Positions 7,095-59,989 of a DNA stretch of 64,000 bases are shown here, one piece after another. Position 1 is the first letter of the stretch. Every line of letters begins with the position of its first letter. Made by a program: the position numbers and the translations under genes. The notes beneath the pieces were generated by a model that was not told the origin of the DNA, did not search any database, and saw nothing but the letters and a program-made list of their open reading frames with translations. Location of the stretch: IMG/VR virus record IMGVR_UViG_3300046009_010174, positions 1 through 64,000 of that record. The stretch is one strand, 5' to 3'. The stretch comes from a virus.

Positions 7095-10000
7095 ATGTCC
7101 GAAAGTTCATTATCGTTTGCATCAACATCAAGTTTTAGAAATAGTTTACTGAATAGGAATTTACCCCCCTATGCAGTGACTGGTGTTTATACAGCACCTG
7201 TTGGTACTAGAACATATGAAACAAGTTTAAGTGATTACAATGTTATTAATTCACCTGATGATTTAATCTCACAGAATCCATTTGTAAGACAACTTTATCC
7301 GTTGAATGAGTATGGACCTGAAGGTGGATATAATTATACAATCACATACAATAACCCACCAATAATTAATAGTTCTAATCAAGGTGAATATAGTCCAAAC
7401 GACACAGTACTAGATTTAGTTAATGAATTTTTTATTGACGCAGCATATATCGAAAACAGATATGGTCCTGTGGGAGGATTCAATGATATGGTTATTATTG
7501 ATAACATACAAAACAATAATAAGTTATATACACCATATTGGAATCCCCCAACTTTTGTACCCTCTTCCTATAGTCCATATCAGATTCTAATTTCTCCTGA
7601 CCCCGCTGGTGATAGTGGATTATTATCACAAGATTCATATTTAGCTAAGCTTGGGGCTCAAACTTTAAAAAAACTTTTTCAGGACAGAGTTGATGCTGAT
7701 ACAAGAAGAAATACACAAGGCACTTTGACTCTTGATACAACAAGTGACCCTTTTGATATTTCTTTAATTATTGCGGGTAAAGAACCCTTGAGGTCTAAAA
7801 ATTGGACTATTACAGTACCAACAACACCAACTAATGAATCACCATTTATACAAAGTTTGGGGGGTGCATATTTTCCTGTATCACCTATTGCTGGTGATTA
7901 TTTTGACCCTGTACTTTTTAATGCTGGTTCATCCACACAAATATCATTAGCTCTTAACGTACCTAATTTAACAACTGGAGGTGGAGGTTTACCACTCACC
8001 TTAAATATTACAACGAATCCATCACAGAATTTCATTGATAACACTGGTACAGGTCAACAATCAGCTTTATTTGCTAATATTGATTATAATAGATATAGAG
8101 CACAATATACAAGAACTTCACAATTTGCACAAACTGAAAGTACAATAAATCAAAATGGTACTTTGAATGGTGGTTACTATGTGGGTAGTAGAACATCTGA
8201 ACCATCGACTATTACATCACCACCTTTACAAATACCTATTGACCCATTCGGAAGACAAGTACAAACACCGGTTTATGGACCTAGTGAGTTGGGTAGTTTA
8301 TATGAAGGAAATATTGGTCGATTAAATTTTGGTTTGGCTGGTAAATCATCATCTGATGGTGGAGGTATTGATGGTCAATTTGTGTGGGTTTCACCTAAAT
8401 ATAAAAGTGATGCTGGTTTTAAAGCAACACCTGGTGGTGGTACTGGTTCACAAGATGAGGAATTTAATTTAATAAGTTCACAATATACAAGTAACGAATC
8501 AACAAATTTACAATTCAAAGAAAGTTCTATTTTAGATGCAACTCAACGTCTTGTTAATTCGGCGGATTTAGTTAATGGTATTTCGAGATTAAAACACGTT
8601 GGAAATGCAATTAATCAAGTTAGTAAAGTTTTCAACGATGGATATAAAGAATTAACAAAAGGTTCAAGAGTTTTATCATATAGAGATAACACTACTGGTG
8701 CTGAAGCGGGTATTGAATATTGTAGGGTATTTGCAAAAGATACACCTTATTACACTTATGGTGATTTACAGAAATCAGATGGTATTACTAAATCAGGTAG
8801 AAGATTTGACTATTCTGTATTGGACAACACTTATAATTTAAACATAGCACCACTCAAAAATCCTGGTTCAACAAATCTACAACCAAATGCAAAAGGTCAA
8901 GTTGTTGCTAAAAAATATATGTTCTCAATTGAAAATCTTGCTTGGAGAACATCAAGTAAACCTGGGTTTACATATGATGATTTACCTGCATGTGAAAGAG
9001 GACCTAATGGTGGTAGAATTATGTGGTTCCCACCCTATGATTTAACATTTGAAGATAGTGCTGATGTATCCTTCGATGCAACAACTTTTATTGGTAGACC
9101 TGAACCTATATATACTTACTCAAAATCAAGTAGAAGTGGTTCAGTAAATTGGAAAATCATAGTCGACCATCCTTCTGTTATGAACACAATTGTTCAAAAA
9201 CAACTTAAGGGTCAAACTAAAGAAAAAATTGATTCAATAGTTGATTCATTTTTTGCAGGTTGTGTAAAATTTGACATTTACGAATTAGCTAAAAAATTTA
9301 ATACAATACCATTGTCTGAATTATATACATACCAAGAGGTTATTAATAATCCAAGATTAACCAAAGAAGAACTTGGTCAAGTTATAACAGAAATATCAAA
9401 AGAAAATGTACCACTTGGAGGACAAGATGGAGGAAATGTTACTCCACCTCAGGGTGTCAAAAAAACTACACCAGACCCAGCTAAACAAGCTTTTGTTGAT
9501 GCCTATTTAGGTATAGGTTTTTATTTTGACAATGATATTCCATCATCTGGTGATATTCCATATAATAGTACTTATGATGGTTATATTTCAAAAAAAGAAA
9601 CTTATAAAACGAATGCTGAATCAGCTTTTGCTTCAGGTGGAACTTATTGTAAACAAAATGTTGAATTTTGTAATAGAGCCAAAAATGTCAACGAGTTTTT
9701 CGATTCTGTTGTAAAAACAAATTATGAAAAAGTTTCAAGTGGACAAAAGAATTTTATTACTGATGCCTTTGATTTATTGAATAATAAAAAAGGAACTATT
9801 ACTATAGAAATGGAGGGTGCTGCCTCAGCGACTGCGTCAGTTGATTACAATAAAAAATTGTCACAAAGAAGAATAGATTCAGTTGAAAGTTTCTTAAAAT
9901 CTTTTAAAATCGGAGATGCTAATTTACAAAAATTTATTGATGATAAAAAACTAATAATTAAAGAAATTGCAAGTGGTGAACAAGCTAAAAGTGTTGTTCC

Positions 10001-45800: not shown

Positions 45801-46233
45801 TTGTCCTATACAAAACACAGAGTGTCCAAAATATCCTTGGTTAAGTGACCCAAAACTTGGTAGTTTTGGTAGTGTTTTAGGTAAATTGTTGAATGAATAT
45901 CTTACTTCTATTGGTTATGACCCAAATAATTGTAGTTTGAATACGTTAACCACAGAGTGGTATGTGGATATTAGGATAGATGATATTCAAGTTGTTTCTT
46001 ACCCATTCTTCAATGGAATAGGATATAATTTAATACCATTAAGTTATCCTACAACTACGAATTGGGACACAGCATTAGTTACCGCTATGAATTTGATTAA
46101 ACCACTAGGTTATGATTATTACTTTACTAGTGACGATACTATTGTAGTTTATAATCAAGTGTGTTCTGTGTCAGAAGCTGATATTAACTTCAAGTTAAAT
46201 ATCGGAATAAACTTCTCAATTTATTGTGTATAA
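42856..46233 (+). CDS. Baseplate wedge-like protein with gpI/gp7-type motif, 1125 aa
   Basis: Around residues 350-470 it contains VLQIYGRSFDEVNKYITSL, LRNLAQTLGW and FKSKGTRKSIENLLRLIG. The KGT-plus-helix motif is characteristic of phage tail protein I (P2 gpI), related to the C-terminal part of T4 gp7. This gene, rather than the 1782-aa one, may therefore be the true gp7 equivalent. From about 850 onward it is Cys-rich (DLCECISITG, GYDPCCG, PCRPCELND), with a C-terminal segment (WYVDIRIDDIQVVSYPFFNG) that also seems to occur in the next protein. The start overlaps the preceding stop. Confidence 0.7.
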   Translation: MAKFTCPPQTPSGAGTFANNLVGLQLVTGGGLTQGTFNFTLSASEKVNRNFSTGTFSNPISLDSMGIIDINQAKAIIENNYKVYPNFDLTQVTNFVLYGSMAKRMSAAVTQVISYFPAALESTTLRLDYSTGVTAFNVVFSLQYNETTFELDLTKIRNPFGIDYTTNSTRNLSLREIPVSTLRNMTLEYAKYSLYYNEIGYQVKRIVPTNSLTSGNLSITVVGNPFSGETNVFGNIIIRPNDSEVNKVFNENLDEVENFLLNRTSTPIYTASFVIPKEADDGTYYSDNASVTWPILGLWNLDIISSTFVDYLTVLNDISVSFDSYRTNLVSRFFTTPAFKEFDTIGQKMDKVLQIYGRSFDEVNKYITSLSYVTSVNYNVRNDIPSQLLRNLAQTLGWQTNISPITNTDFLNSVFGQTNQEKSMFSGVPVAQTPDELNYQFYRNVLLNTAYLFKSKGTRKSIENLLRLIGAPEALVEFNEYVYLADQRININKFNSYYAQISGGTLVEQTPTLESSNVFTLFGVQYTGFTTTVTIKDVNITIDEFPIDEFGFPKPITDSEAYFFQIGSGWFEQTPQHRAPEQVNSTLSVFTGLNPDYQTSLKPYTYGQEYLDRFRKFPFIQLGYNISPSVDNNKSWYDSEVLLRVNLDGNINARYFVADDKLVLNVKNTEIFLNPAQGLLYDVWYMSRLYNYPIPNQGMNYVNPNGCFPNAASCYPDRNGVDWTIINPQPKQKTFFEFAQTFWKNTINVRNRQYSTDGKTSGYPTLQSIYWKYLQSLQDVNIANNNFTYQTMIEYVNGLGDYWIRLIEQMVPATTIWNTGVKLENSIFHRQKFQWKRQRGCQIILDTPPPTPDPVDLCECISITGASVGSSTLITTLSPNGYVNGKQSFLGYDPCCGLVKDIIISYNSGSTRWEYYYDGTLVGTLNSTSDCPIGSVWSNTKNNVGTISSTNRTICPNPASFTPLRPNPCRPCELNDSLYTYDCPIQNTECPKYPWLSDPKLGSFGSVLGKLLNEYLTSIGYDPNNCSLNTLTTEWYVDIRIDDIQVVSYPFFNGIGYNLIPLSYPTTTNWDTALVTAMNLIKPLGYDYYFTSDDTIVVYNQVCSVSEADINFKLNIGINFSIYCV

Positions 46234-48374
46234 TGTCTTGTTTTTTAGATGTAGTAGTAAATAGTATAACTGGTGATTGTAGTAATACGTCCTCAGGTGC
46301 GTTTAATATAAGTATCAATGGTAGTGCTCCTGATTTTACAATTTCTTGGATTGACCCTAGTTTTGGTACAATTCCACTTAGTGGTGCCACAGGGTACACA
46401 ATTAGTGGACTTTCGGGTGGTTCTTATGTATTTAATGTTATTGATAGTTGTTCAGGAGGTAGTACAACATTTCCTGTAAGTGTCTATATTTCGACAGGGA
46501 CTTGTGTTACCTTGACAGGTGTTCAGAATACAACTTGTAATCTGAGTAATGGTAGTATTACTGCTGATACAACAAATTATTATAATTCACCTACTTTTAG
46601 TTTATACGAAATATCGAGTGGGTTTATTACTTCAGGACAAAGTTTCAACAATATCTTCACATTTAATTCTTTATCTGCAGGTACATATTATGTTATTGCG
46701 GACGATGGTGGGGGATGTACTGGTAAATCTGAATCATGTATTGTTAAGTCATCAACTACGTTAGATTTTGGTGTATATGTCATCAATGATGCGGGATGTG
46801 CAGTGGACTCAGGGGCAATCTACGTTACTGGTCAAACTGGAGTACCACCATACACATATTTGTGGTCAAATGGTCAAACAACCCCATCAATCACAGGATT
46901 AACACCTGGTAATTACAATGTGGTGGTGACAGATAGTGCTGGTTGTTCTAATAGTTTGGGTGTGGTTGTAAATGAAGTACCACCAATTGGATTGGGAACA
47001 TTTACAATTACAAATCCATCTTGTTACACTTCGGATGGAAGTGTAACAGTTGTTACAACTGGTGGTACTGCACCTTTTTATTATTCAGGTTCTAACGGAA
47101 CTGTAACAATTACTTTTGCTTCGAGTTATACATTTACTGGTGTTGCCGCAGGTAATTTCTCAGTTAGTGTAACTGATGCTGGTTTATGTAATTTTGTGGC
47201 ATCCACAATTTTGTTGACTCCGAATTCATTTACTAACGTAACAGTTTCAACAACCAACTCACTATGTAATAATAATACAGGTGTTGTTTCAGTTTCTCTA
47301 TTTGGTGGTTCCCCTCCTTATTCATATACTCTGATAGATTTCACAGGAAACTCAGCAACAACAGTTACTAATGCAACAAATGTAAACTTTAATGCCTTGG
47401 AATCGGGTAATTACACCTTACAAATTACTGATGGAGGACCTTGTGTTTTTACTCAAGCTGTGACAATAAATAATACAATTTTATATACTTTAAGTTCAGT
47501 TGTATCAGGTACAACTTGTGGACAAAATAATGGTGTTGTTACTTTAAATATAAGTAGTGGAGGTACACCACCCTACATCTATCAGATGGATGGTGTTTTA
47601 GTTAACACAAGTTTGTCAGGTTATACATTTTCAGGATTAGCACCTGGTAATTACACAGCATCTGTAATTGATGCTAATTTATGTCAACAATTTTTACCAA
47701 TATTAATACCAACCTCATCCTCGGTAAATTTTATATTAAACCCAACATCACCACTATCGGGAAATGATGGGATGATAGAAACTTTTATATTAGAAGGTGA
47801 ACCTCCGTTTAATTTAATATGGAGTTCAAACGCACCAAGTGGACAAACTGGTTTAACAATAACTGGTCTCACTGCTGGTACGTACAATCTAAGTGTTACA
47901 GATGATAATGGATGTACACAAGTAAGAAGTGTAACTTTATTCGGATACAATTTAATATCTTCATATCAAGTTTTAAATATTTGCAACGATAATTTTGTAA
48001 ATTCGGGTCAATTAATCAAAAAGGGACTACAACAGATGTATCTTGAAGGTTTTCATGACTTAACATCAGGTGATACCAATTGTTTACTAAGTGCCGCAAC
48101 TTTTGTTTGTGAAGTTAGTGTAAATGGGGTAACCAACTCAATTGGTTTTTATAATTCCACATCGTTAAACGATTTTCCAACTGATAGTGTATATTTTAAT
48201 GTTGTTGAAATATTATTATCACTATACCCCGAATTAGAAACAATAACTATTGATATATCGACAGGTGAGATATTAATTAGTTCATTGTGTAATCCATCCA
48301 TTGGGATGATTGATGCAACAATAATTGTGAGTGTAATAATTCTTTACAACATAAATTGTGTAAGTTGTGCATAA
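46233..48374 (+). CDS. Tail fibre with seven SprB-like repeats, 713 aa
   Basis: Starts at ATG 46233, overlapping the previous stop (TAATG). Residues 1 to about 570 form roughly seven tandem repeats of 75-85 residues. Each has a Cys and GS.. segment, a GG.PPY-type turn (GVPPYTYLWSNG, GGSPPYSYTL, GGTPPYIYQM) and an ending like ITGLTPGNYNVVVTDSAGC. This matches SprB-type repeats (Pfam SprB), named for the flavobacterial gliding adhesin SprB. The C-terminus (about 575-713) is a separate domain with FVCEVSVNGVTNSIGFYNST. It is probably a fibre or adhesin reaching the host surface. Repeat identity is strong; function is inferred. Confidence 0.82.
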   Translation: MSCFLDVVVNSITGDCSNTSSGAFNISINGSAPDFTISWIDPSFGTIPLSGATGYTISGLSGGSYVFNVIDSCSGGSTTFPVSVYISTGTCVTLTGVQNTTCNLSNGSITADTTNYYNSPTFSLYEISSGFITSGQSFNNIFTFNSLSAGTYYVIADDGGGCTGKSESCIVKSSTTLDFGVYVINDAGCAVDSGAIYVTGQTGVPPYTYLWSNGQTTPSITGLTPGNYNVVVTDSAGCSNSLGVVVNEVPPIGLGTFTITNPSCYTSDGSVTVVTTGGTAPFYYSGSNGTVTITFASSYTFTGVAAGNFSVSVTDAGLCNFVASTILLTPNSFTNVTVSTTNSLCNNNTGVVSVSLFGGSPPYSYTLIDFTGNSATTVTNATNVNFNALESGNYTLQITDGGPCVFTQAVTINNTILYTLSSVVSGTTCGQNNGVVTLNISSGGTPPYIYQMDGVLVNTSLSGYTFSGLAPGNYTASVIDANLCQQFLPILIPTSSSVNFILNPTSPLSGNDGMIETFILEGEPPFNLIWSSNAPSGQTGLTITGLTAGTYNLSVTDDNGCTQVRSVTLFGYNLISSYQVLNICNDNFVNSGQLIKKGLQQMYLEGFHDLTSGDTNCLLSAATFVCEVSVNGVTNSIGFYNSTSLNDFPTDSVYFNVVEILLSLYPELETITIDISTGEILISSLCNPSIGMIDATIIVSVIILYNINCVSCA

Positions 48375-48378
48375 TAAA

Positions 48379-48403
48379 AAACCCCACCTAAAAAGTGGGG
48401 TTT
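48379..48403. terminator. Bidirectional terminator between convergent genes
   Basis: AAACCCCAC / GTGGGGTTT forms a 9-bp stem with a 7-nt loop between the plus-strand fibre gene and the minus-strand RuvC-like gene. T-rich sequence follows on both strands, stronger in the minus direction. Confidence 0.9.
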
Positions 48404-48407
48404 AATT

Positions 48408-49007
48408 TTACCATAAATTTTCTTGTTTCATATATCCTAACACACAACAATAAGCATCACTCATATCAAAATTCTCTTTCTTAAGAGTATTGTTTTTTGT
48501 GTAACCCCAATTTATTTGAGGTTCTCTTTTGGCTACTTGTTCCCAAATAATTTGTTTTTTGTCACAATCCTTTGGTAATCCACCAAACAAAACAAACTTC
48601 CCTTTACCATTATCTTTCACTAACCATGGGAAAGCGTTTTTTCTTGAGTTGTATGTTGATATGTATTCAGGAACAATACCTAAAACATCATATATCTCTT
48701 TGGAAATAAGAGTATTATATCTCATTAAAGTTTGTATAGTATAAACATTGTTACTATTTAAAAGTGGCTCTTCGATAACAACTTTTTTGATGTTTAATTC
48801 ATCATACCCCTCTAATTTAGTTTTGAAAATTTCGGTCTTAAGAAATAATTCCTTCATTTTATTTTCTTCTTTAGGTTTGGTTACTGGTGAGATATGAGTT
48901 AATTCCAATAATTCCTTACTTTCTATGTCAAACAATGCCCAACCAATTGTTTTCGTAGAAATATCTAACCCCAAAACCTTTGGGGATTGTTTCATTTTAT
49001 CATTCAT
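48408..49007 (-). CDS. RuvC-like Holliday junction resolvase (RNase H fold)
   Basis: A 199-aa protein with the RuvC-type acidic tetrad layout: D15 in VLGLDISTKTIGWAL, E79/E80 in KKVVIEEP, and D181/D184 in FDMSDAYC. Size is close to E. coli RuvC (173 aa). RuvC-fold enzymes cut four-way junctions; T4 uses the unrelated endonuclease VII (gp49), so this may be its functional replacement in packaging and recombination. Met1 or Met5 could be the start. It is the last gene of the minus-strand cluster, 3 nt after the 806-aa fibre gene. Confidence 0.8.
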   Translation of the reverse strand: MNDKMKQSPKVLGLDISTKTIGWALFDIESKELLELTHISPVTKPKEENKMKELFLKTEIFKTKLEGYDELNIKKVVIEEPLLNSNNVYTIQTLMRYNTLISKEIYDVLGIVPEYISTYNSRKNAFPWLVKDNGKGKFVLFGGLPKDCDKKQIIWEQVAKREPQINWGYTKNNTLKKENFDMSDAYCCVLGYMKQENLW

Positions 49008-49010
49008 AAA

Positions 49011-51431
49011 TTAAATATCTAATTTGATTACAAACTGTTGAATCCCCGTTCTCGGATATGGAGATTGTAGCTTTGAAACAATCATAAGATTTTTGTCTGA
49101 ATCGTAAAGACCAATTTCAGTTACGAATGGTTGGACTGAAGTATTCCACGATGGATTTGAGGAGTATTGGAATTCTGATTGACCTAATACTATCTGATAC
49201 CTCATTTCATAAATTGTGGCTTGAATGTCAGTTTCTATATTACCATAAAAATAATATTCATCACCAAAATTTAATTGAGTTCCTGAAAAACCTGCCGTAG
49301 TTATATCAATATAATCACTTAAGTCATAAAGTGGTGCATTATCATATAAGTCCTGAGTTATAACAAACGTATTACCTGTTAAACCTGATTGTGTTAAATA
49401 CCCATTATTACTTGTACCACTAAGTTGGAAATTATAGTCAATTATTCTCCATTGTGATGGTTCTGGTCTACCATTACCCTCAACCTTTTGACAAATAATT
49501 TCAAATGAATCAGCAATAAAACCTGACGTAATATCACAACCTACAGAACATATACTTGGATTAGATGATAAACAATTAAATTCATCACCAAATCTTACAC
49601 TAACATTTTGAGAATTCAAAGGATTACAAGTTATGTTAGGTCCTTGTATTACTTGATAATAATTAGAATGTAAAGAATTAGTATAGGCTGAAGAGTTTGA
49701 TAATCGATATGTAACGTGTAAATATTCAGTTTCGCCAGTCAGAATTCCCTCAACAGATTCGTTATCCAAACCACAAATATTTGGTGTAATTAAAGCAACC
49801 TTTGGCGCTGGTAATGTCCAGTTTCTATTGGCTTTATATGACATTGCGGCAATAATCTCTTCATCATCAATAATGATTAGTTTGTGGTCAGGAAATACCT
49901 TACCAATTCTGTTTGGTATTCCCGCAATCGGTGTTGTATTTGGGTTTGGATTAGTATCCCATAGGTGATAATATCTTATACCTGGATTATTCATATCTTG
50001 GTTTTGATTTGACTCCAAGTAATGAACAGTAAATAATGGTATAATTAAATCATCAAAACCAGGAGGGTCAACATAAAAAGTTTGTCCATAACAACATTCA
50101 GGGTTTTTATGCCACATTAACCACGGAATGTGTAATTTGAAATTCCTTGCTTCTCCTATTGTATCATCAGGTTCAGTAATATCGTGAGGTTCCAAGGCGA
50201 ATTTTTCACCATAGAAAAAATCAATCGTATTATTAGTATAATGAATAATAGCAATGGCCTTTTGTTCTTCAGGTGTAACTACAACCTTTTCATCAAAAGA
50301 GTTATAATAATAAGTTGAATCAGTATCGGTTTGTCCACTACTTGAAGCGTAACCAAAATATTCTTTAGACCCCAAATAATCAATAGAACCAAATTTAGTA
50401 TAATCTTTGTGTGTTGAGGAATTTATACCTGCTGGACTTTCTGACCAAGGAATATTCATATTCCAAATTTTAACATCAAATTGGTCAGTATAACAAACCG
50501 ATTCAAAATTGATAACATCATATGGGAAGTGTTGAGATGGTGTTACACTATCATAAATCTCAGTCATTCCTGATGGATATACAATTACACGAGCATAACA
50601 ATCACCACTTAAATATGTAAAATCAGGTGTTGACCTATCCAAAGTTATATTATCCAAACAAACATCAACAATTCGATATGTTAAAATCGTATAACAACTT
50701 GACATATCCACAACACAAGTTGCAGTATAACTCGGTAAACACGGGCCACAATTAGTCACAGGACAAGTTGTGGTTGTAGTTGTTGTTGGAGGTGATGGTG
50801 GACTACAAGCGTCAGTTGTTGTTGTTGTCGTTACTGGTAAGGTAGTTGTAGTAGTTGTTGCAGTGAAACAATTACAGTCATTAACACCATTACCATCATA
50901 AATTATCGTTATAAAATCACCAATTTGATAGTTCCTAACAAAATCATTGTTACATGTAATTGCCGAAACCACAATCAAATTTGAACCATTCAAACCACTC
51001 ATTTGTATTACATAGTTAGATGTTAGTGCGTAGTCACCTGTGGTTATTGCACTCCACTCTATGTTTGAACCTGATGTTGTACCTAAGAAAAACCCCCTTG
51101 GTGATGCTGTATTATACACTGGACTTACAATCGATTGCATAAATGGGATTCCATATGTATTTCCGTTGTTACCATCCACGTAGTAAGGGTATTTAATGTT
51201 TTCCTTATTTGATTGAGGAACACCTGCCGAATTTTGAGCATTGAAACTTGGCTCTAATACTCTACTATTATATTGGTTATAACTTGTTTGAGGAATAGCA
51301 TTATACGAAACTTCACTATCACCAATTTGAAAATAACTTATATTAAAATTACCTTGAGAAATTTTTTGTCTCCCAGTATCGGTAATCCTTGTGTTTATTA
51401 AACCTGCTGTGTTTTTTAAAATATATCCCAT
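49011..51431 (-). CDS. Modular tail fibre/baseplate protein with Thr-rich linkers, 806 aa
   Basis: The N-terminus has NTRITDTGRQKISQGNFNIS followed by YFQIGDSEVSYN, a pattern often seen at the start of phage tail or fibre proteins (DxGRxKLxxGxFxI..FxxGD). Around residues 190-225 runs of Thr (TTTTTTLPVTTTTTTDACSP) form a flexible linker rich in Cys. The large C-terminal part is beta-rich with structural-type sequence (NFKLHIPWLMWHKNPECCYG, KVFPDHKLIIIDDEEIIAAM). No catalytic motif is seen. It is a likely fibre or fibre-adaptor, placed by the N-terminal motif and by neighbours. Confidence 0.7.
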   Translation of the reverse strand: MGYILKNTAGLINTRITDTGRQKISQGNFNISYFQIGDSEVSYNAIPQTSYNQYNSRVLEPSFNAQNSAGVPQSNKENIKYPYYVDGNNGNTYGIPFMQSIVSPVYNTASPRGFFLGTTSGSNIEWSAITTGDYALTSNYVIQMSGLNGSNLIVVSAITCNNDFVRNYQIGDFITIIYDGNGVNDCNCFTATTTTTTLPVTTTTTTDACSPPSPPTTTTTTTCPVTNCGPCLPSYTATCVVDMSSCYTILTYRIVDVCLDNITLDRSTPDFTYLSGDCYARVIVYPSGMTEIYDSVTPSQHFPYDVINFESVCYTDQFDVKIWNMNIPWSESPAGINSSTHKDYTKFGSIDYLGSKEYFGYASSSGQTDTDSTYYYNSFDEKVVVTPEEQKAIAIIHYTNNTIDFFYGEKFALEPHDITEPDDTIGEARNFKLHIPWLMWHKNPECCYGQTFYVDPPGFDDLIIPLFTVHYLESNQNQDMNNPGIRYYHLWDTNPNPNTTPIAGIPNRIGKVFPDHKLIIIDDEEIIAAMSYKANRNWTLPAPKVALITPNICGLDNESVEGILTGETEYLHVTYRLSNSSAYTNSLHSNYYQVIQGPNITCNPLNSQNVSVRFGDEFNCLSSNPSICSVGCDITSGFIADSFEIICQKVEGNGRPEPSQWRIIDYNFQLSGTSNNGYLTQSGLTGNTFVITQDLYDNAPLYDLSDYIDITTAGFSGTQLNFGDEYYFYGNIETDIQATIYEMRYQIVLGQSEFQYSSNPSWNTSVQPFVTEIGLYDSDKNLMIVSKLQSPYPRTGIQQFVIKLDI

Positions 51432-51434
51432 AAA

Positions 51435-51442
51435 GATAAATA
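51435..51442 (-). promoter_or_regulatory. Late-promoter-like box, minus strand (TATTTATC)
   Basis: TATTTATC, read on the minus strand, lies 3 nt upstream of the ATG ending at 51431. Confidence 0.35.
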
Positions 51443-51455
51443 TCGAAAATTGATT

Positions 51456-52181
51456 TTATGTGACGATAATGTTACAACAATAACATCCTGATATAGAAAC
51501 ATTACTTAAAGTGTAATTTTCAACACTTTGACCTAAATAACAAGCGACATCTTGGTTTTTAGTTGTAGTTGTATATGTTGTTAATATTAAAGTATCTGAA
51601 TTTGTATAAGTGAGATTGTTCCATCCCTCAGTGTACGAAGTGATGTAAACATTTTGATTTTGACAACCTGGTGTTGGATTATAAGTTGTACTCAAAGTCG
51701 AACTTGAGTATGAAATAGATTGTGTGACACTATTTTTAACCAAGTCACTCGTTGACGTTGTTGTAGAAGTACCTGAGAATGGAGAAGATTTTGAAGTATT
51801 TAAATGTACCAAATTAAATGTTATAGTTACACCACTTGGTAAACTTGGAAACACTGAAATAGTTGTATCGTATTTTTTTGTTAATGTTGTATTGTTATTA
51901 ACTATTGTTGTTGACGAAGTATTAATTGTAACGTTGTATGTTATTGAATTATTCGATGTGTTTAGAATAACAGAATTTGTTGATGTTTCACCCGACACGT
52001 CTTTTACAATAACAGAGTATTGACCAGGACATAAATTACTAAATAATGGTGTATTAAAATAGGTTAAACCATTATTAATTGAGTAGGAATATGGTGGTGT
52101 TCCATTGTAACCTTGAATTGCAAAAGAACCATCACATCCACAAATTGTATCATTTATATTAACAGTTGAAGTTAAAATCAT
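51456..52181 (-). CDS. Short fibre protein with one SprB-like repeat, 241 aa
   Basis: The first 80 residues match a single SprB-type repeat: ICGCDGSFAIQGYNGTPPYS, a LCPGQYSVIVKDVSG ending and Cys in the expected places. The remainder is Ser/Thr/Asn-rich beta sequence with little Lys, and ends with Cys-rich CYCCNIIVT. It lies 3 nt upstream of the 731-aa fibre stop, in the same direction. Probably a fibre accessory or tip subunit. Confidence 0.65.
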   Translation of the reverse strand: MILTSTVNINDTICGCDGSFAIQGYNGTPPYSYSINNGLTYFNTPLFSNLCPGQYSVIVKDVSGETSTNSVILNTSNNSITYNVTINTSSTTIVNNNTTLTKKYDTTISVFPSLPSGVTITFNLVHLNTSKSSPFSGTSTTTSTSDLVKNSVTQSISYSSSTLSTTYNPTPGCQNQNVYITSYTEGWNNLTYTNSDTLILTTYTTTTKNQDVACYLGQSVENYTLSNVSISGCYCCNIIVT

Positions 52182-52184
52182 ATA

Positions 52185-54380
52185 TTAGCTTGTTGAAGTA
52201 AATGTGTATGTACTTGTTTTAGTACCCCCAGCAACTAAATTGGCTGTTAATGTAACTAAATAAGTATGTGTATTACCAATCGGAGGACACGGGCCTTCCC
52301 ATCCTTGAGTATTTGAAGCACCTGGGTCACCTGTGGTTGGATTTATTGTCACACCACCAGGCCAAGGTATTGATGAACTAACCTGAGTGGTTGTATTTGG
52401 TATATTTGTTACATCCCAATGAATATATCCCGGATTGTCTAAATCTTCACAATAAATTTCAAAACTACTAATGTCTGAACTTGTTAAACCCCCCAACAAA
52501 TACCATTTAAACCAAGGAGTTTCATTAGAACCACCACAAGCCCCTGAAAATTTAAATGTTGTTGGTATGTCACTATCATCTAACGCCCACCAAGCATTAA
52601 TTGTTAAAGATAAAAAGTCAGAACAAGCACCTATTGATGTTATAGTTTGTTGTTGAGGACTTGGAGGATTAACAGACATTGTCCATGCTCCTGAAGTTGG
52701 TGAACTTGGATATCCTTTGAATATAGTCCAAGTAGATGTACCTAAAGCTGTATTTATAATACTACTTGTTGATGCCGATAACGACCATACTCCCGAAGTA
52801 CCAACAGATGGGTTAAAATATACAATTTCATTACCAGAATTTGATATCCAAGATGTTTGGCCATTTATATAAGTGTTATATTGGAAAGTAATTTGAGTTG
52901 TGGTTGGAGTAGGTGTACCGCCAGTCCTTTTGGTTGTCGTAATTGACATACAGAAAATATTTTCTAAATAGTTTGGAACTGGAGGTAAAGTTGTTGTTGA
53001 TGTTGTAGTCGTTGTAAAACCAGGTACTGTACAAGTTGTTGTGAAAGTATAGTCACCATAATAGTCACTAACAACGGCAGTATAACTACCAGTAGATAGA
53101 CCATTTATTGTCTTACCACCTATTAGTGTAGCACCATTAGGAAAAGTCCATTCTATTGTGTATGGAGGAACACCACCAACGATACTTAATGTTATTGAAC
53201 CATTTGAACTATCAGGGTTTCCAGTAATATTTGTTACATTACAGATTACGTTTAATGGTTGTATAGTGAGTACGTTACAATCATTTACTGGTATATAACC
53301 CGAGTTTATATATGACCTAGTTGTTGTAGTTGTCGTTGAAGTGGTAGGTGTTACACCAGTACAAGGTGTTCTTAAAACTTGTGAACAAAAAGGTGAACCC
53401 GAACATGTTACTAATGTAAATCCACTCGAACAAGTTAACCCAGTAACACCTGAATTATCAAAAGTAGTACCCGTTAAATCTCTTGTGGTGAATACGGTTA
53501 CTAAGGTTAATGCTGATTGGGAAGTAATTGCACTCAAAGACGAAACACTACCTGAATAAATTTCAGCACCGAAACCACCAGTAGCTCCTGTACTTGAATT
53601 TAGACCTTCCATTTGAATATAATTCGGTCCTGCTGGTAAAGTTATTGGGAAAACTGACCAAGTTGAAAAAGTTTGACCATGTGTTCTATAAGCTGAAAAT
53701 GAATTGTACTGATTACCGAAAGTAAAACCACTTGTATTAGCTTCAACTAATAACACACCATTTAATTTAAATCTGTAAAAATCGTCAGCACCCATTCCCA
53801 AATAATAGGTTTGAGATGTTGGATTATTGAAACAAGCAGTGAAACCAATCCATTCATTTGCTGGAGAAAAAGGTGATGTTGTTGTTGGCCAAACACCTGA
53901 GTAATTTAATCTACCTGGTGAATTGGGTAGAAAAGTTGTTGATTTATTACCCCATACTGTATTAGAATTAGCACATGGCCAAATTCTAGGTCCGTGAGTT
54001 GTTGCACTTAATGAACAACTTTCTAATAAACCACTTGGAGAAACAATACTTTGACCAGCACCCGGGCCTCCCAAAATATAATTTAAAGTTCTATCCTTCA
54101 AACTTTTGGTAGTATCAGAATCTATAAAAAATGATGTGTTGAATAAGGGTGTCCCATTTTTTGTTTGAGAACCAGTTGTAATTCCTGTCAGTATAATTGG
54201 AAACGTCAAATTAGTTATGTCTTCATAAAAAATTGTCCCCATATATCCGTTGGTAGAAAACTGACCTGCTTTCAAAACAACAAGAGTTGAGGCAGAACCA
54301 CTGGTTGATGCGGTTACTTCTCTTATACACTCAGAATTATCAGGTGCTGCGGTATAACCAGATGGACAAAAACAACTCAT
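52185..54380 (-). CDS. Modular fibre protein with PA14-like, SprB-like and PEBP-like domains, 731 aa
   Basis: The N-terminus is Cys-rich (FCPSGYTAAPDNSECI). A PA14-like carbohydrate-binding region follows (ACFNNPTSQTYYLGMGADDF, YRFKLNGVLLVEANTSGF). A TSTTTTTTRS linker precedes an SprB-like repeat (NGSITLSIVGGVPPYTIEW), then a TTTTTSTTTLPP linker. The last 150 residues match a PEBP/YbhB-type domain: SDIPTTFKFSGACGG, IYCEDLDNPGYIHWDVTNIP, and GWEGPCPPIGNTHTYLV. PEBP proteins bind lipids or small ligands; in a fibre it may bind a surface molecule. It has a late-promoter-like box 15 nt upstream. The PEBP match is strong; binding function is inferred. Confidence 0.78.
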   Translation of the reverse strand: MSCFCPSGYTAAPDNSECIREVTASTSGSASTLVVLKAGQFSTNGYMGTIFYEDITNLTFPIILTGITTGSQTKNGTPLFNTSFFIDSDTTKSLKDRTLNYILGGPGAGQSIVSPSGLLESCSLSATTHGPRIWPCANSNTVWGNKSTTFLPNSPGRLNYSGVWPTTTSPFSPANEWIGFTACFNNPTSQTYYLGMGADDFYRFKLNGVLLVEANTSGFTFGNQYNSFSAYRTHGQTFSTWSVFPITLPAGPNYIQMEGLNSSTGATGGFGAEIYSGSVSSLSAITSQSALTLVTVFTTRDLTGTTFDNSGVTGLTCSSGFTLVTCSGSPFCSQVLRTPCTGVTPTTSTTTTTTRSYINSGYIPVNDCNVLTIQPLNVICNVTNITGNPDSSNGSITLSIVGGVPPYTIEWTFPNGATLIGGKTINGLSTGSYTAVVSDYYGDYTFTTTCTVPGFTTTTTSTTTLPPVPNYLENIFCMSITTTKRTGGTPTPTTTQITFQYNTYINGQTSWISNSGNEIVYFNPSVGTSGVWSLSASTSSIINTALGTSTWTIFKGYPSSPTSGAWTMSVNPPSPQQQTITSIGACSDFLSLTINAWWALDDSDIPTTFKFSGACGGSNETPWFKWYLLGGLTSSDISSFEIYCEDLDNPGYIHWDVTNIPNTTTQVSSSIPWPGGVTINPTTGDPGASNTQGWEGPCPPIGNTHTYLVTLTANLVAGGTKTSTYTFTSTS

Positions 54381-54395
54381 TAATTAGATTTTAAA

Positions 54396-54403
54396 TATAA
54401 ATA
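54396..54403 (-). promoter_or_regulatory. Late-promoter-like box, minus strand (TATTTATA)
   Basis: TATTTATA, read on the minus strand, lies 15 nt before the 731-aa fibre start and is followed by TTTAAAAT, as at 3716-3723. Confidence 0.55.
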
Positions 54404-54406
54404 GAT

Positions 54407-55384
54407 TTATTGATTGTTTTGAACAATCTTTTTCATTATTTCGATGTATTTTATTGTTGAACTATTTTTCTCCACGTAATCAAAAAAATTAATGTTGGTT
54501 TTCAATTTATCTAAAGGACTTACATTAATAAATTCACCTTTATAAAATTTTGAAGATTTCAAGTCATCGGTAACACCTGCCATATGTAGTATTGAATGTT
54601 GATTATAAATCTCCATTGAATCTGTTGCCCACGAAAAACTTAATTCATCTGATATTTTAGTTTCATAATTATGTAACCATAAATTCCACAATAAAGACCA
54701 CATTTCTGCTGTCCAAAATTGTATTTCACCAGGACTTATCGGAAATCTTTTTTGGTAACTCAACATTTGGTCATAAAGTGGTGTACAATCTTCATAAATT
54801 TTTTTCCATAGTTCTTTTGTCGTGTTTTTCAACAAATACTGACCACCACCTGAGTTAAGTTGGTTTTCTTTTATAGTATTAACATCAATTCCTATAATAT
54901 CACTCATTTCTCTCAAAAGTTGACCTTTTTGTGAGTTTGGATGTCTTCCTTCATATCTTTTACAACAATCCATAATGTAGTTGTAACCAATATAACCGAT
55001 TGTATCTGATAAATAATTTATTTCATCTTTGAGTAATGAATTGAAATCAGGTAATTTTCTGAATACAATATCAGCATCGTGTAAAAAAATATTTCTACTT
55101 AAAATCGGAAACTCCTCAATTAATTTGTAAACTAAAAATGGTTTTATGTTAGGTATATAATGTTTTTGTTTTCTATCATCTAAATAATGATGAACATTAA
55201 TTCCTAAATCTTTTAAATTTAAGGATTCATCACTAGGTTTGGTATTACCATAAACCATTGCAAATACAACGTGTATTTGATTTGGATTGATTCCCATCTC
55301 AATAAAGTTGTGAACATAAACTCTTACTTGCCAATGAAAGTAAGGAACATCTGGTTGTGCTGATACAAAAATTAAATCCTCCAT
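54407..55384 (-). CDS. Glycosyltransferase-like protein (GT-A type), 325 aa
   Basis: The N-terminus is a Rossmann-like strand (EDLIFVSAQPDVPYFHWQVR). The HDADIVF motif near residue 100 resembles the metal-binding DxD of GT-A glycosyltransferases. Other features fit sugar transferases: GGGQYLLKNTTKELW and SPGEIQFWTAEMW. It lies within the fibre cluster, so it may glycosylate fibre or other virion proteins, or alter host glycans. The donor and acceptor cannot be deduced. Confidence 0.65.
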   Translation of the reverse strand: MEDLIFVSAQPDVPYFHWQVRVYVHNFIEMGINPNQIHVVFAMVYGNTKPSDESLNLKDLGINVHHYLDDRKQKHYIPNIKPFLVYKLIEEFPILSRNIFLHDADIVFRKLPDFNSLLKDEINYLSDTIGYIGYNYIMDCCKRYEGRHPNSQKGQLLREMSDIIGIDVNTIKENQLNSGGGQYLLKNTTKELWKKIYEDCTPLYDQMLSYQKRFPISPGEIQFWTAEMWSLLWNLWLHNYETKISDELSFSWATDSMEIYNQHSILHMAGVTDDLKSSKFYKGEFINVSPLDKLKTNINFFDYVEKNSSTIKYIEIMKKIVQNNQ

Positions 55385-55413
55385 AATACAAAATTATAGA
55401 GGATTATTTGACT

Positions 55414-56628
55414 TTATAAATAATATAAAACATCCGCAGCCCCAATAAAAGTAGCATTTGCACCTAATGGTGTTATACATAACCACATTTCATCTAAAGT
55501 ACCATTAACATTTGAACCAACTCTTATTTGATTGTCATCTAATTTAGTGGTCGTTAAAGCAGATGTACCAGCCTGACCAATTAATGATGTCATTACGTGT
55601 CCTGGTGTTGTTATTGTTGGAGTTCCATCACTTAAAGAATATTGAAAAGGTGAGTTAGGTATATCAGTCCAACTTGGCGTTGAAGATAATGTTGGATTGA
55701 ATTCTATAGTCAACAAGTAATTATCGTTTGAAGTGTTTAAGATACTGATTGTGTCAAACTGAGATGTTACACCAATGTAATTTTCTTTTAATCTATAGCC
55801 AATATATGGGTATTTTGTACCTGAGGTGGCCATCGTAGTTGTTGCGGTATGTGGAATTGAAACCGTAGAATACAAACCATTCAATGCACCTTCTGTAGAT
55901 ACTTGAGAACAAATCATATCAAAATAACCTGAACCAACACCAACTTGTCTTATTTCATATCTAATTGGTTGATTCGGTGAAGACATATATACTGTTGGAA
56001 TATTGTTAGCAGCAGTATAATCAATAAAATATATTGTTTGACCTGATAAAACCATACCAAATCTCACTCTACCTACACCTAACCATTGATAATCTACAGT
56101 CATTAGATTTGTTTCAGCCCAATCAAAATTATTTGGGTCGAATTCGGTTGAGTTCCAAGTTGTTGAGTCAGCACTAAAAGTACAAGAACCACTTAAGAAT
56201 ATATTAAATGTTATTGCACTAGTAACACCATTACTTTCCAAAAAGTAACCATCAAATACTGAATTATATGGTGACCCTGTTGTTGATTGAAAACACCCAA
56301 CTCTTTTAATAACATTGGATTCAATTTGAAAATTACTAAAACTTCCCTCAAACAACTGACTTTTACCTGGTTGGTAAATTGGATGTGTTTTAGTTTTACG
56401 AATAACTAAATCATTGTTAGCTGATGTTGACATTCTAACTCTTGCGTATTGTTGACTAAATACGGATGTTGCAGTACCAGCAGTTACCTCACTAACCTGA
56501 AGTGGATTTTTATCAAATGTATGTTTAATATCCAAAAGATTTTGGACTGCGGCAGTCCTTAATCTACCGAAAGCGTCTAAGTTAGGTCCATCTGAATATT
56601 TTATTGAGTTATTAAAAATGTATGCCAT
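55414..56628 (-). CDS. Tail fibre/structural protein, 404 aa
   Basis: Begins IFNNSIKYSDGPNLDAFGRL; a DAFGRLRTA-type segment recurs near the N-terminus of many phage fibre proteins. The remainder is beta-rich, Ser/Thr/Asn/Gly-rich, with few Lys and no catalytic motif (YFLESNGVTSAITFNIFLSG, RYEIRQVGVGSGYFDMICSQ). It starts 1 nt after the stop of the 271-aa gene. Receptor-binding or virion decoration is the likely role. Confidence 0.7.
   Translation of the reverse strand: MAYIFNNSIKYSDGPNLDAFGRLRTAAVQNLLDIKHTFDKNPLQVSEVTAGTATSVFSQQYARVRMSTSANNDLVIRKTKTHPIYQPGKSQLFEGSFSNFQIESNVIKRVGCFQSTTGSPYNSVFDGYFLESNGVTSAITFNIFLSGSCTFSADSTTWNSTEFDPNNFDWAETNLMTVDYQWLGVGRVRFGMVLSGQTIYFIDYTAANNIPTVYMSSPNQPIRYEIRQVGVGSGYFDMICSQVSTEGALNGLYSTVSIPHTATTTMATSGTKYPYIGYRLKENYIGVTSQFDTISILNTSNDNYLLTIEFNPTLSSTPSWTDIPNSPFQYSLSDGTPTITTPGHVMTSLIGQAGTSALTTTKLDDNQIRVGSNVNGTLDEMWLCITPLGANATFIGAADVLYYL
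55415..55422 (-). promoter_or_regulatory. Late-promoter-like box, minus strand (TATTTATA)
   Basis: TATTTATA, read on the minus strand, lies 30 nt before the glycosyltransferase-like start. It overlaps the stop codon of the 404-aa gene. Confidence 0.5.
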
Positions 56629-56629
56629 A

Positions 56630-57445
56630 TTATATTATCCACCAATTATTATTTCTTGCCACAAATGAAAGTGACATATAGTTTATGTTCATATCAACGT
56701 AAGCGTTCCCATCAATTGTACCCGAAGATGGTGTTATTCTTATTCTATAAGTACTTGCATAACCACCTTCGTCTTTGATTGTTAATTTATATCCTTGAAT
56801 ACCTGAGGGTGAAAATAAAGTGACATCAACATTACCTGAGTAACTTATTCCATTATAACTATAACCTGTAACTAATGTAATAGCTGAAGTTGATATACCA
56901 GTTGTTGATTCGGTGGAAGTACCTACACCTATAACATTAAAAGTACCACCAGTATTATTTACAAGTGTCAATGTTCCCGCCGAAAATGTACCACCAGTAA
57001 CCCTTATGTCCGTTGGTAAATTTTGATATGTCGTTGCTGATATTGTTCCACTACTAGTTGTTCCCGTGACTGATAAATTTCCATTAATTGTTAAACCAGT
57101 CATAGTATTAACATTTACAGAAAATGAACTTCCATCACTTTCAGATAAAGTAAATGTATTATTATTGTAAGTAAAAGCGGTAACACTTGTGTCTGTAAAT
57201 CCTGTAACAAATCCTGAAACTGAAAAAGTACCACCAGAACTATTAGTAAATGTTATTACACCTGTTGAGGAATTATAAGTACCACCTGTAATGTATACCG
57301 ATTGTACTAAATTAGTTACTTGTTGGATTGTTGCTTTATATGATGAACCTGCAGGATTTTGCGATGTATCACTGGTATTAACAATATGTATTAAATCAGT
57401 GAATGTTACTCCTGTTGCTAAAGTTCTATCGGTAAGAAATGCCAT
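56630..57445 (-). CDS. Tail fibre-like beta-repeat protein, 271 aa
   Basis: The N-terminus (LTDRTLATGVTFTDLIHIVN) resembles fibre attachment segments. The body consists of repeated short beta units with Gly/Thr turns (YITGGTYNSSTGVITFTNSS, RVTGGTFSAGTLTLVNNTGG), consistent with a triple-beta-helix-like shaft. The end is beta-rich with a terminal NNNWWII. A late-promoter-like box lies about 12 nt upstream. Confidence 0.72.
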   Translation of the reverse strand: MAFLTDRTLATGVTFTDLIHIVNTSDTSQNPAGSSYKATIQQVTNLVQSVYITGGTYNSSTGVITFTNSSGGTFSVSGFVTGFTDTSVTAFTYNNNTFTLSESDGSSFSVNVNTMTGLTINGNLSVTGTTSSGTISATTYQNLPTDIRVTGGTFSAGTLTLVNNTGGTFNVIGVGTSTESTTGISTSAITLVTGYSYNGISYSGNVDVTLFSPSGIQGYKLTIKDEGGYASTYRIRITPSSGTIDGNAYVDMNINYMSLSFVARNNNWWII

Positions 57446-57457
57446 TTTATTTTTTTA

Positions 57458-57465
57458 TATAAATA
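57458..57465 (-). promoter_or_regulatory. Late-promoter-like box, minus strand (TATTTATA)
   Basis: TATTTATA, read on the minus strand, lies about 12 nt before the start at 57445. The box ends just before the stop codon of the next upstream gene (57467). Confidence 0.55.
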
Positions 57466-57466
57466 G

Positions 57467-57766
57467 TTAGGACATAAAGAAATATGGAACACCATCCATA
57501 AAAAAGAAATCTTGTAAATCCATAAAGTCCTTATTATCATCACTACAATATAAAACTTTGAATTTCTCACAACCATCACTTGTAATTACCTTAATACCCA
57601 AAGCTGGTGCAGTTTTGAATTGTTGTGGAAGTGCAAATAAATTATTTAAAGGTACGTTTGTATCAATGTACGCAACCAAAACACATTGAAGGCCATATAC
57701 ATCACAAATATAAACTGTATAGGGAAAATTAAGACCAAAAATGGATGAAAATTCTAAAGTAGTCAT
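57467..57766 (-). CDS. Small hypothetical tail-cluster protein, 99 aa
   Basis: Not recognised. The pattern FPYTVYICDVYGLQCVLVAY, followed by KVITSDGCEKFKV, resembles the 71-aa protein at 59774-59989 (TPFDIYLCDDPLTTCVYVST, KVVDDNNCEII). Cys pairs and beta strands suggest a small beta-sandwich module. It may be a fibre cap or attachment piece. Confidence 0.65.
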   Translation of the reverse strand: MTTLEFSSIFGLNFPYTVYICDVYGLQCVLVAYIDTNVPLNNLFALPQQFKTAPALGIKVITSDGCEKFKVLYCSDDNKDFMDLQDFFFMDGVPYFFMS

Positions 57767-57782
57767 TTGAATAGTTACTTTA

Positions 57783-57790
57783 GATAAATA
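57783..57790 (-). promoter_or_regulatory. Late-promoter-like box, minus strand (TATTTATC)
   Basis: TATTTATC, read on the minus strand, lies 16 nt before the ATG ending at 57766. Confidence 0.4.
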
Positions 57791-57806
57791 CTACATTTTA
57801 TATAAA

Positions 57807-59768
57807 CTAAAATCCACCATCAATCAAAGTACCTCCTTTACCTGTATCACCAATAGTTGAAATACAAATAGTACAATTTTCGAAGAAACTTACACCTGAA
57901 GTTGGAAAACTGTTTCCTGACAAATAAGTTGAAGTTGAACCCAAAGGTAACGTTGGATATGTGGTTGAATAAGAAATAAATTTCCAACATTGTCCATTGT
58001 ATGGTGAACTTGATAAACTGAATACTTGATTTGGAGTATATGTCGGACCTGGTAAAGTTTGTATTACATATTGAGTTGGGTCAGAACATCTCTGATACAA
58101 ATAATAACCAACTGCTTGTGAAGACGTTGGAGTAGGTGTTAATGTTGGAGTGATGGATGGGGTTGGTGTAATTGTAGGGGTTGGGGTTATATCAGGAGTA
58201 CAAACACTATCACAACTTGACAAACCAGTGATACTTCCCAAAGGACCATCAACCAAATCTATTTGGTCAACACCGATTACGTCTAATTCTATACCTAAGA
58301 ACACAACACACTTTGAAACACCATTTATATTTGCCTTGAATATATCTGATTGTGTTAAAGTACCACCTGATGGTAATATTATTGGATTTACAGCATAATA
58401 TAAACTACCATTTGAACAATCAACGAACTTCTTACTCGAAGGACATTCTAATATTCCAATTACTGGATTAAAGGTAACTGTTCCTGAGATATTACAAGGT
58501 CTTGTCACTTCAGGTGTCATTGTAGGTGTTACACTTATTGTTGGTGTTGGAGTTGGTGTATAACCAGTAATTGTTGCATCCAATGCTCTACCACCACAAG
58601 GGTCACTTGGTGTTGGTGTTGGAGTTATTGTTGGTGTTAAAGAGATTGTAGGTGTTACACTCGGAGTAGGAGTAACTTCACAATCAAAAACCGCAGTGAA
58701 ATCTAAAACTGAACAATTTACAGTTGGTGTTGGTGTTGGTGTTGGACATGCTCCACTGAAAACATAATCATCACATAAATCGGGACAACTTGAGTTACAA
58801 GGATATGGTCCTTCAAGTAAACAAGAGCCACCCAACGTAGTCGATAAACACCAAGTACCTCCAGTTGTAAAATATATAAAGTCACCATTCGTTGTTCCAG
58901 ACCAATATGTTTCACTATTATATGTACCAGCAGACAAGTAGGTGTCATCATAACCTAAACCTGTGTCACTTATACAATATATGGGTGGACAACCCAAACA
59001 AGAAATTAATTCACTAAAAAGATTAATTGAAGAACCTGTTAAATCCGATAAACAATTTAAAGCATTATCAATAGTTGTTGTAGTAAATGATGGACAATAA
59101 CTTGTTGTTAATGAACCAGCACCCCTTGGAACTGATGTGGTTAAATTTTCTATTTCCCAATCATTAGTGTCCCAATACATTACCATAAAGTCACCATTGA
59201 TATTTGTAAACGTATAATATTGTCTGCCATTTATAATACCATCATTGTATAATCCTCTATAATAATAACCACCTGAATATTCGATTCCAAGTAATAGACA
59301 ACATTCATCTATATTACATTGATATGTATTTGTACAATCAACACAATCTGTAAAAATAACTGGAATTGCAAAATCCATTTGTAATGCTGTCACATATGGA
59401 TATGATGCTGCGTCACCATCGTCTGTAATGTTATGACATCCATAACTAACGTTAGTACTATTAGTAAAAGCTGCAAAGTAGACATAATATGACGCACCTG
59501 AAAAACCTGATAACGAATTAGGAATTTCGACAGAAAATGAATCAACAGAACAACATGCAGAAAAATCGTAGGTTAAATCTAAAGTACCTTGTAATTGTAC
59601 ATCCAAACCCACATAAGTTGAACCAGTAACGGATTCATCAGCTGAAATATAAAATGTTTGACTTGGTGGTATATTAATTATAATATTACTACCTTGAGAA
59701 TCTATGAATGTGAATCCACTATATAATGTAGAACCTGTGTTTGCAACAAAAAAGCCGTAATTAGCCAT
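57807..59768 (-). CDS. Modular fibre protein with Pro-Thr linkers, 653 aa
   Basis: The N-terminus (NYGFFVANTGSTLYSGFTFI) begins a beta domain with Cys pairs (CCSVDSFSVEIPNSLSG). Cys-rich modules follow (TNTYQCNIDECCLLLG, SCLLEGPYPCNSSCPDLC). Long PT repeats link domains in three places (PTPTPTVNCS, TPTITPTPTPSDPCGG, TPTPTITPTPSITPTLTPTP). The DNA of these linkers is repetitive. It is a likely elongated virion adhesin. It starts 5 nt after the 71-aa protein's stop. Confidence 0.68.
   Translation of the reverse strand: MANYGFFVANTGSTLYSGFTFIDSQGSNIIINIPPSQTFYISADESVTGSTYVGLDVQLQGTLDLTYDFSACCSVDSFSVEIPNSLSGFSGASYYVYFAAFTNSTNVSYGCHNITDDGDAASYPYVTALQMDFAIPVIFTDCVDCTNTYQCNIDECCLLLGIEYSGGYYYRGLYNDGIINGRQYYTFTNINGDFMVMYWDTNDWEIENLTTSVPRGAGSLTTSYCPSFTTTTIDNALNCLSDLTGSSINLFSELISCLGCPPIYCISDTGLGYDDTYLSAGTYNSETYWSGTTNGDFIYFTTGGTWCLSTTLGGSCLLEGPYPCNSSCPDLCDDYVFSGACPTPTPTPTVNCSVLDFTAVFDCEVTPTPSVTPTISLTPTITPTPTPSDPCGGRALDATITGYTPTPTPTISVTPTMTPEVTRPCNISGTVTFNPVIGILECPSSKKFVDCSNGSLYYAVNPIILPSGGTLTQSDIFKANINGVSKCVVFLGIELDVIGVDQIDLVDGPLGSITGLSSCDSVCTPDITPTPTITPTPSITPTLTPTPTSSQAVGYYLYQRCSDPTQYVIQTLPGPTYTPNQVFSLSSSPYNGQCWKFISYSTTYPTLPLGSTSTYLSGNSFPTSGVSFFENCTICISTIGDTGKGGTLIDGGF
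58120..58745 (-). repeat. Pro-Thr coding repeats in fibre gene
   Basis: Short degenerate repeats of the GTTGGTGTT type, read on the plus strand, occur at about 58125-58195, 58515-58560, 58610-58680 and 58720-58745. They encode PT-rich linkers; unique domains separate them. Confidence 0.7.
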
Positions 59769-59773
59769 TATTA

Positions 59774-59989
59774 TTATACTACTAAATTGGAGATTATTTC
59801 ACAATTATTATCGTCAACAACCTTAAGATTATATGATAATTGACCATCCAAAATGAATGGGACATCAAAAGAATATGTTCCACCAGTTATGGTTGAAACA
59901 TATACACAAGTTGTAAGGGGGTCATCACATAAATAAATGTCGAAGGGTGTAGCCCCAGTTACTCCATTTATTGTTATCGTTGTTGGCAT
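59774..59989 (-). CDS. Small beta protein, 71 aa
   Basis: Begins PTTITINGVTGATPFDIYLC and continues CVYVSTITGGTYSFDVPFIL, with two Cys near DDPLTTC and one near the end (DDNNCEII). It seems to share a pattern with the 99-aa protein at 57467-57766. It is the first gene of the minus-strand cluster, preceded by a late-promoter-like box, and divergent from the primase. Function unknown. Confidence 0.68.
   Translation of the reverse strand: MPTTITINGVTGATPFDIYLCDDPLTTCVYVSTITGGTYSFDVPFILDGQLSYNLKVVDDNNCEIISNLVV

Follow-up and report, generated by a model that had tools for sequence, protein, structure and literature searches.

The 64,000-nucleotide stretch of viral DNA analysed here (the window) comes from an IMG/VR record of 64,095 bases, a virus fragment that encodes a single PEBP domain, found at the C-terminus of a 731-aa protein (the carrier). 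PEBP proteins occur across most of life and are familiar mainly through lipid-binding proteins and flowering signals, while the role of their cavity is disputed between binding site and active site. The carrier and the genes around it are as follows:

46224..48374, plus strand: SprB-repeat protein of 716 aa, without PEBP (SprB E=5.6e-21)
48408-49007, 49011-51431 and 51456-52181, minus strand: three genes conserved round the PEBP carriers of related phages
52185..54380, minus strand: 731-aa carrier in the ORF list, with PEBP at its C-terminus
Carrier, N-terminal part: no known family assigned by Pfam, PHROGs or tblastn
Carrier, residues ~345-355 and ~456-465: Thr-rich linkers
Carrier, residues ~366-452: SprB-like repeat region
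Carrier, residues ~470-592: further domain between the SprB-like repeats and PEBP
52188..52604, minus strand: PEBP domain, carrier residues 593-731 (~139 residues)
54407-55384, minus strand: 325-aa protein of phrog_4417 (function unknown), next gene upstream of the carrier
55414..56628, minus strand: 404-aa virion structural protein (phrog_1645, E=3.6e-50)

The first-pass annotation took the carrier for a tail fibre protein, with PEBP at the fibre tip as a possible lipid or ligand binder. This may be so; over the first ~590 residues, Pfam, PHROGs and tblastn found no homology to a fibre family, and a PA14 match at residues 177-237 falls below the Pfam threshold. Searched whole by tblastn, the carrier has zero matches among 50,697 named phage records, and its full-length AF2 model, built with three sequences, has a pLDDT of 32. 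The PEBP domain itself recurs in identical form on five further contigs, including one of 194,498 bases, and at 93% identity on a sixth. Its dN/dS is 0.064 against L007 and 0.13 against L061, two diverged homologues, which marks it as a coding domain under purifying selection and rules out chance.

Gene neighbourhood and presence or absence of the domain on homologous carriers

The surroundings of the carrier are those of tail and structural genes, with baseplate wedge, SprB-repeat and phrog_1645 virion proteins nearby, the last of these showing 31% identity to structural proteins of Virus Rctr197k and cyanophages. The record also holds T4-like replication and baseplate genes, encoding UvsX-like and single-strand binding proteins, a DnaB-like helicase, ribonucleotide reductase and the baseplate wedge. 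The stretch 46224-59989 encodes one virion-type protein after another, with small beta-type domains and with linkers rich in Thr or in Thr/Pro (TTTTTT, TPTPTPT), and most of these proteins match nothing in PHROGs or Pfam. The SprB repeats hint at a host among the Bacteroidota.

Among the three conserved minus-strand genes, relatives show 75-76% identity at 48408-49007 and about 56-59% at 49011-51431. The former is a RuvC-like resolvase gene inside the structural cluster, a place that it keeps in related phages. The 325-aa phrog_4417 protein contains an HDAD motif of glycosyltransferase-like appearance and is 81-83% conserved in phages with the 731-aa carrier. The fold of the downstream gene junction shows nothing notable. 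At 1131-2687 on the plus strand lies a gene for a 518-aa HNH or homing endonuclease (phrog_3339, 2.4e-102).

Homologous carriers occur both with and without the domain. The 716-aa SprB-repeat protein of the window, which has no PEBP, corresponds over its whole length to residues 1-716 of orthologues in related phages; these are 1184-1191 aa long and end in PEBP, the 1184-aa forms continuing beyond residue 716 with a Thr/Pro linker, a further domain and then PEBP. In the same region L278 encodes a 751-aa protein, a 30% homologue of the PEBP carriers that L062 and L064 encode (882-895 aa), which stops exactly where PEBP begins in those carriers. At least three virion-type proteins thus carry the domain in the group of the window phage.

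Predicted fold and cavity residues

By sequence and predicted fold, the C-terminal ~139 residues of the carrier are a PEBP domain, as the first-pass annotation had proposed from three PEBP motifs, which are indeed present in the 731-aa ORF in the order that it gave. The interval assigned to the domain at that time (52185-52660) does cover it, but PEBP starts near residue 593 (52604), so that ~19 residues of the preceding region had been taken in. The PF01161 profile covers residues 614-713 with E=1e-11 and 45.7 bits, for a curated cut-off of 24, and a plain phmmer search against the PDB matches the domain to E. coli YbhB (1vi3) at 9e-5. The suggested comparison of a predicted structure with PEBPs bears this out: an AlphaFold2 model of the domain, made from an 11-row alignment, has a pLDDT of 83 and a pTM of 0.81, and all of the ten PDB structures closest to it are PEBPs, with TM up to 0.76. 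YbcL comes first (E=1.1e-8, TM 0.74), and Ig/FN3 folds rank directly behind the PEBPs. Since the input alignment contained one YbhB row, a profile of nine phage rows without YbhB was also run, which retrieves YbcL (5.5e-16) and YbhB (2e-14).

With YbhB/YbcL (PF01161; TIGR00481; PDB 1fjj, 1vi3, 1fux), the phage domain shares a common predicted fold (TM about 0.75), the same cavity-rim residues and the GPxPPxGxTHxY motif. It differs in being fused to virion proteins, whereas YbhB and YbcL are stand-alone cellular or periplasmic proteins; it also lacks the Arg discussed below, has a shorter C-terminus, stays under the cut-off of the TIGR00481 subfamily (37.8 bits vs 57.75) and stands apart on the tree.

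The cavity residues of the window domain are:

52443..52445, minus strand: D646, cavity-rim Asp (D71 of FT), kept in 17/17 phage domains
52419..52421, minus strand: H654, cavity-rim His (H87 of FT), kept in 17/17 phage domains
52266..52268, minus strand: H705, cavity-rim His (H118 of FT), kept in 17/17 phage domains
52263..52265, minus strand: T706, in place of the usual Arg (R119 of FT), so that the HR pair reads HT

Across PEBPs, five charged residues are nearly invariant and three of them lie at the cavity rim (PMC8793217). In the phage group, D646, H654 and H705 are among only 13 of 139 positions that are invariant in 12 divergent domains. The Asp, His and Pro of the anion pocket named in the first-pass annotation are kept, here and in relatives, but its HR pair is not. 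The shoulder salt bridge pair of second Asp and Arg is likewise incomplete: D648 is present (its position is kept in 14 of 17 phage domains), but the Arg has become T706. Arg stands at this position in 2 of 17 phage domains and 32 of 61 cellular ones. Its absence from many cellular PEBPs means that T706 does not exclude membership of the superfamily, and loss of the Arg was rejected as a phage-only signature, many actinobacterial PEBPs and 29 of the 61 cellular domains also lacking it. The two grounds on which the first-pass annotation would have given up its proposal, another fold or a lost pocket, are thus contradicted by what is found.

PEBP domains on unrelated phage proteins

First described as a feature of the 731-aa protein, the window domain is better seen as one example of an exchangeable module that is more widespread among phages. 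In IMG/VR, scans by motif and profile recover PEBP on several unrelated carriers in uncultured tailed phages:

L067: T7-type tail nozzle (PF25675 5e-141, phrog_457 2e-141)
L018/L066: T4-like baseplate hub (phrog_1922 4e-61)
L068: carrier adjoining the portal and scaffold genes of a podovirus
L202, 345-2588, plus strand: subtilase fused to PEBP (Peptidase_S8 PF00082 5e-25)
L273, L281 and others: SprB-repeat carriers of ~1190 aa, on contigs of up to 308 kb
L062, L064, L112: carriers of ~880 aa
L113: carrier with Thr/Pro linkers
L110, L063: stand-alone or glycine-linker PEBP forms

Phage PEBP counts and prevalence derived from the GWxGPCPP scan of IMG/VR are to be read as "at least". The nozzle fusion was found on one contig, L067, and on no second one. 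Beside the stand-alone PEBP gene of L110, one gene away, lies a phage subtilase gene (Peptidase_S8; 5007-7190, minus strand). The hub and nozzle fusions, whose carriers are judged to be virion parts by homology, make up the strongest evidence that this PEBP group belongs to virions, while the fusion in L202 resembles an enzyme with a targeting module.

Each of the 15 phage records searched contains exactly one PEBP match, including those of 194, 272 and 308 kb; several of the records are fragments. In a maximum-likelihood tree built on an alignment trimmed to 95 core columns, one branch splits the 17 phage PEBPs from 61 cellular ones with support of 100/99, and this split is present in 200 of the 200 bootstrap trees examined. 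The window domain stands apart from the 61 cellular domains and does not group with YbhB/YbcL. As no root was inferred, the tree speaks for separation and not for any direction of transfer. The pattern [FY][IV]HW[SD]V[TD][NG]I retrieved no confirmed cellular relative of the phage type from a collection of 84,980 species, cellular PEBPs being retrieved by a wider pattern only. Among the 50,697 named phage records, tblastn of the phage-type domains returned YbhB, the lambdoid moron YbcL and two weak matches in unannotated records. A match in an unverified Staphylococcus phage record was set aside (E=0.05, unannotated, motif absent).

Two trivial sources were considered and rejected. Most IMG/VR motif matches are ybhB genes at prophage edges, a form of host contamination, but the window domain sits inside a phage protein and apart on the tree. 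Nor is the prophage moron YbcL its source, since YbcL groups with the cellular domains; it too is a phage-encoded PEBP, but a secreted-type stand-alone gene placed between replication and lysis genes. An Arcobacteraceae contig (L198) encodes a 1217-aa bacterial ORF with a C-terminal PEBP (GPCPPSGTTHTY), phage-like in layout but grouped in the tree with PEBPs of cells. PEBP homologues also occur in giant DNA viruses (Tupanvirus, Orpheovirus), with weak structural matches (E about 0.01); these viruses infect eukaryotes, whereas the window PEBP comes from a tailed phage. Literature searches, which reached few subscription titles, turned up no paper on PEBP in phage virion proteins, in keeping with the earlier remark that such a module is undescribed.

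Possible roles of the module

The phage PEBP group is probably an exchangeable ligand-binding module, displayed at the C-terminus of virion proteins and used in adsorption to the host surface; the likely ligand is an anionic or sugar group. The terminal, linker-borne position, the outside-type carriers and a polar cavity kept amid divergence all point this way. That a single copy is kept while the carrier changes suggests one function belonging to the domain itself, and the occurrence of the same domain on other tail and virion proteins, once per record, suggests a mobile docking module at the cell surface. In the large T4-like phage of the window, PEBP would be displayed as the terminal domain of a protein that has several domains and Thr-rich linkers and is itself presumably located on the virion. 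The conserved D/H/H cavity would then recognise, on the envelope or capsule of the host, a small polar or anionic group, perhaps a sugar or a phosphorylated head group, and this recognition would lead to reversible adsorption or to positioning of the virion. Several points count against such a role: the low dN/dS, whereas many receptor-binding tips change fast; the N-terminal region of the carrier, which belongs to no known family; the argument that the D/H/H cavity of PEBPs looks less like a binding site than like an active site (PMC8793217); and the behaviour of RKIP, which binds phospholipids but hardly binds free head groups in solution (PMC2864760). The name "phosphatidylethanolamine-binding" should consequently not be taken as stating the ligand.

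Added beta-sandwich folds are widespread in the virion proteins of phages, and PEBP might be such a structural spacer and nothing else, Ig-like in use and with its pocket a relic. This is unlikely. The fold does resemble, superficially, the immunoglobulin arrangement (PMC8793217), the Ig/FN3 folds follow the PEBPs in the structural ranking, and behind the THxY motif the phage form has 24 residues ending in a beta strand vs 42 in YbhB. A relic pocket should decay, yet the rim triad is among the few invariant positions of the domain, and spacer domains come in several copies where PEBP comes once per record. The Ig-like accessory domains of tailed phages are similarly beta-sandwich modules exchanged between phages on unrelated virion proteins, but PEBP is a different family, with a conserved polar cavity and no repeats.

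Little probability is likewise given to a virion-borne enzyme that would have D/H/H as its active site and, as the virion adsorbs, would act on a small group in the envelope or slime of the host that contains sugar or phosphate. The published case keeps this alternative alive: active sites often have two His and an Asp round a polar cavity, an arrangement absent from a set of non-catalytic ligand-binding domains (PMC8793217), and this triad is invariant in 17 of 17 phage domains. Actinobacterial and other extracellular PEBPs, moreover, are fused to carbohydrate-metabolism modules and stand, as in the phages, at the C-terminus of long multi-domain proteins, although these are cellular and not virion proteins (PMC8793217). 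Against an enzyme, the phage domains have mostly lost the Arg and sometimes the second Asp of the five charged residues, the same review establishes catalytic activity for no PEBP, and in the L202 carrier the enzyme part is already supplied by a protease. A carrier that is no part of the virion, but a host-takeover or moron protein encoded by chance within the structural region, is very improbable: stand-alone YbcL, encoded by lambdoid phages away from structural genes, proves that phages do carry PEBPs as morons, but the carrier gene stands in a row of structural genes, other phages have PEBPs of this group fused to hub and nozzle proteins, and YbcL falls outside the phage group.

A ligand-binding module for the host surface therefore remains the preferred reading. 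Its boldest form, put forward tentatively and with rather less assurance, is that PEBP may be a previously unrecognised adsorption module of phages, single-copy and mobile between the virion proteins of unrelated tailed phages, whose ancient cavity docks to a surface group common to many bacteria. In uncultured phages whose size reaches 308 kb, PEBP is a new type of domain among the parts exchanged between virion proteins. Its ligand should be found on the host surface, and the small soluble domain could be used to seek it. With the cavity kept, the rest diverged and one copy placed on outside-type proteins, the phage group would offer a clean test system for the PEBP cavity.
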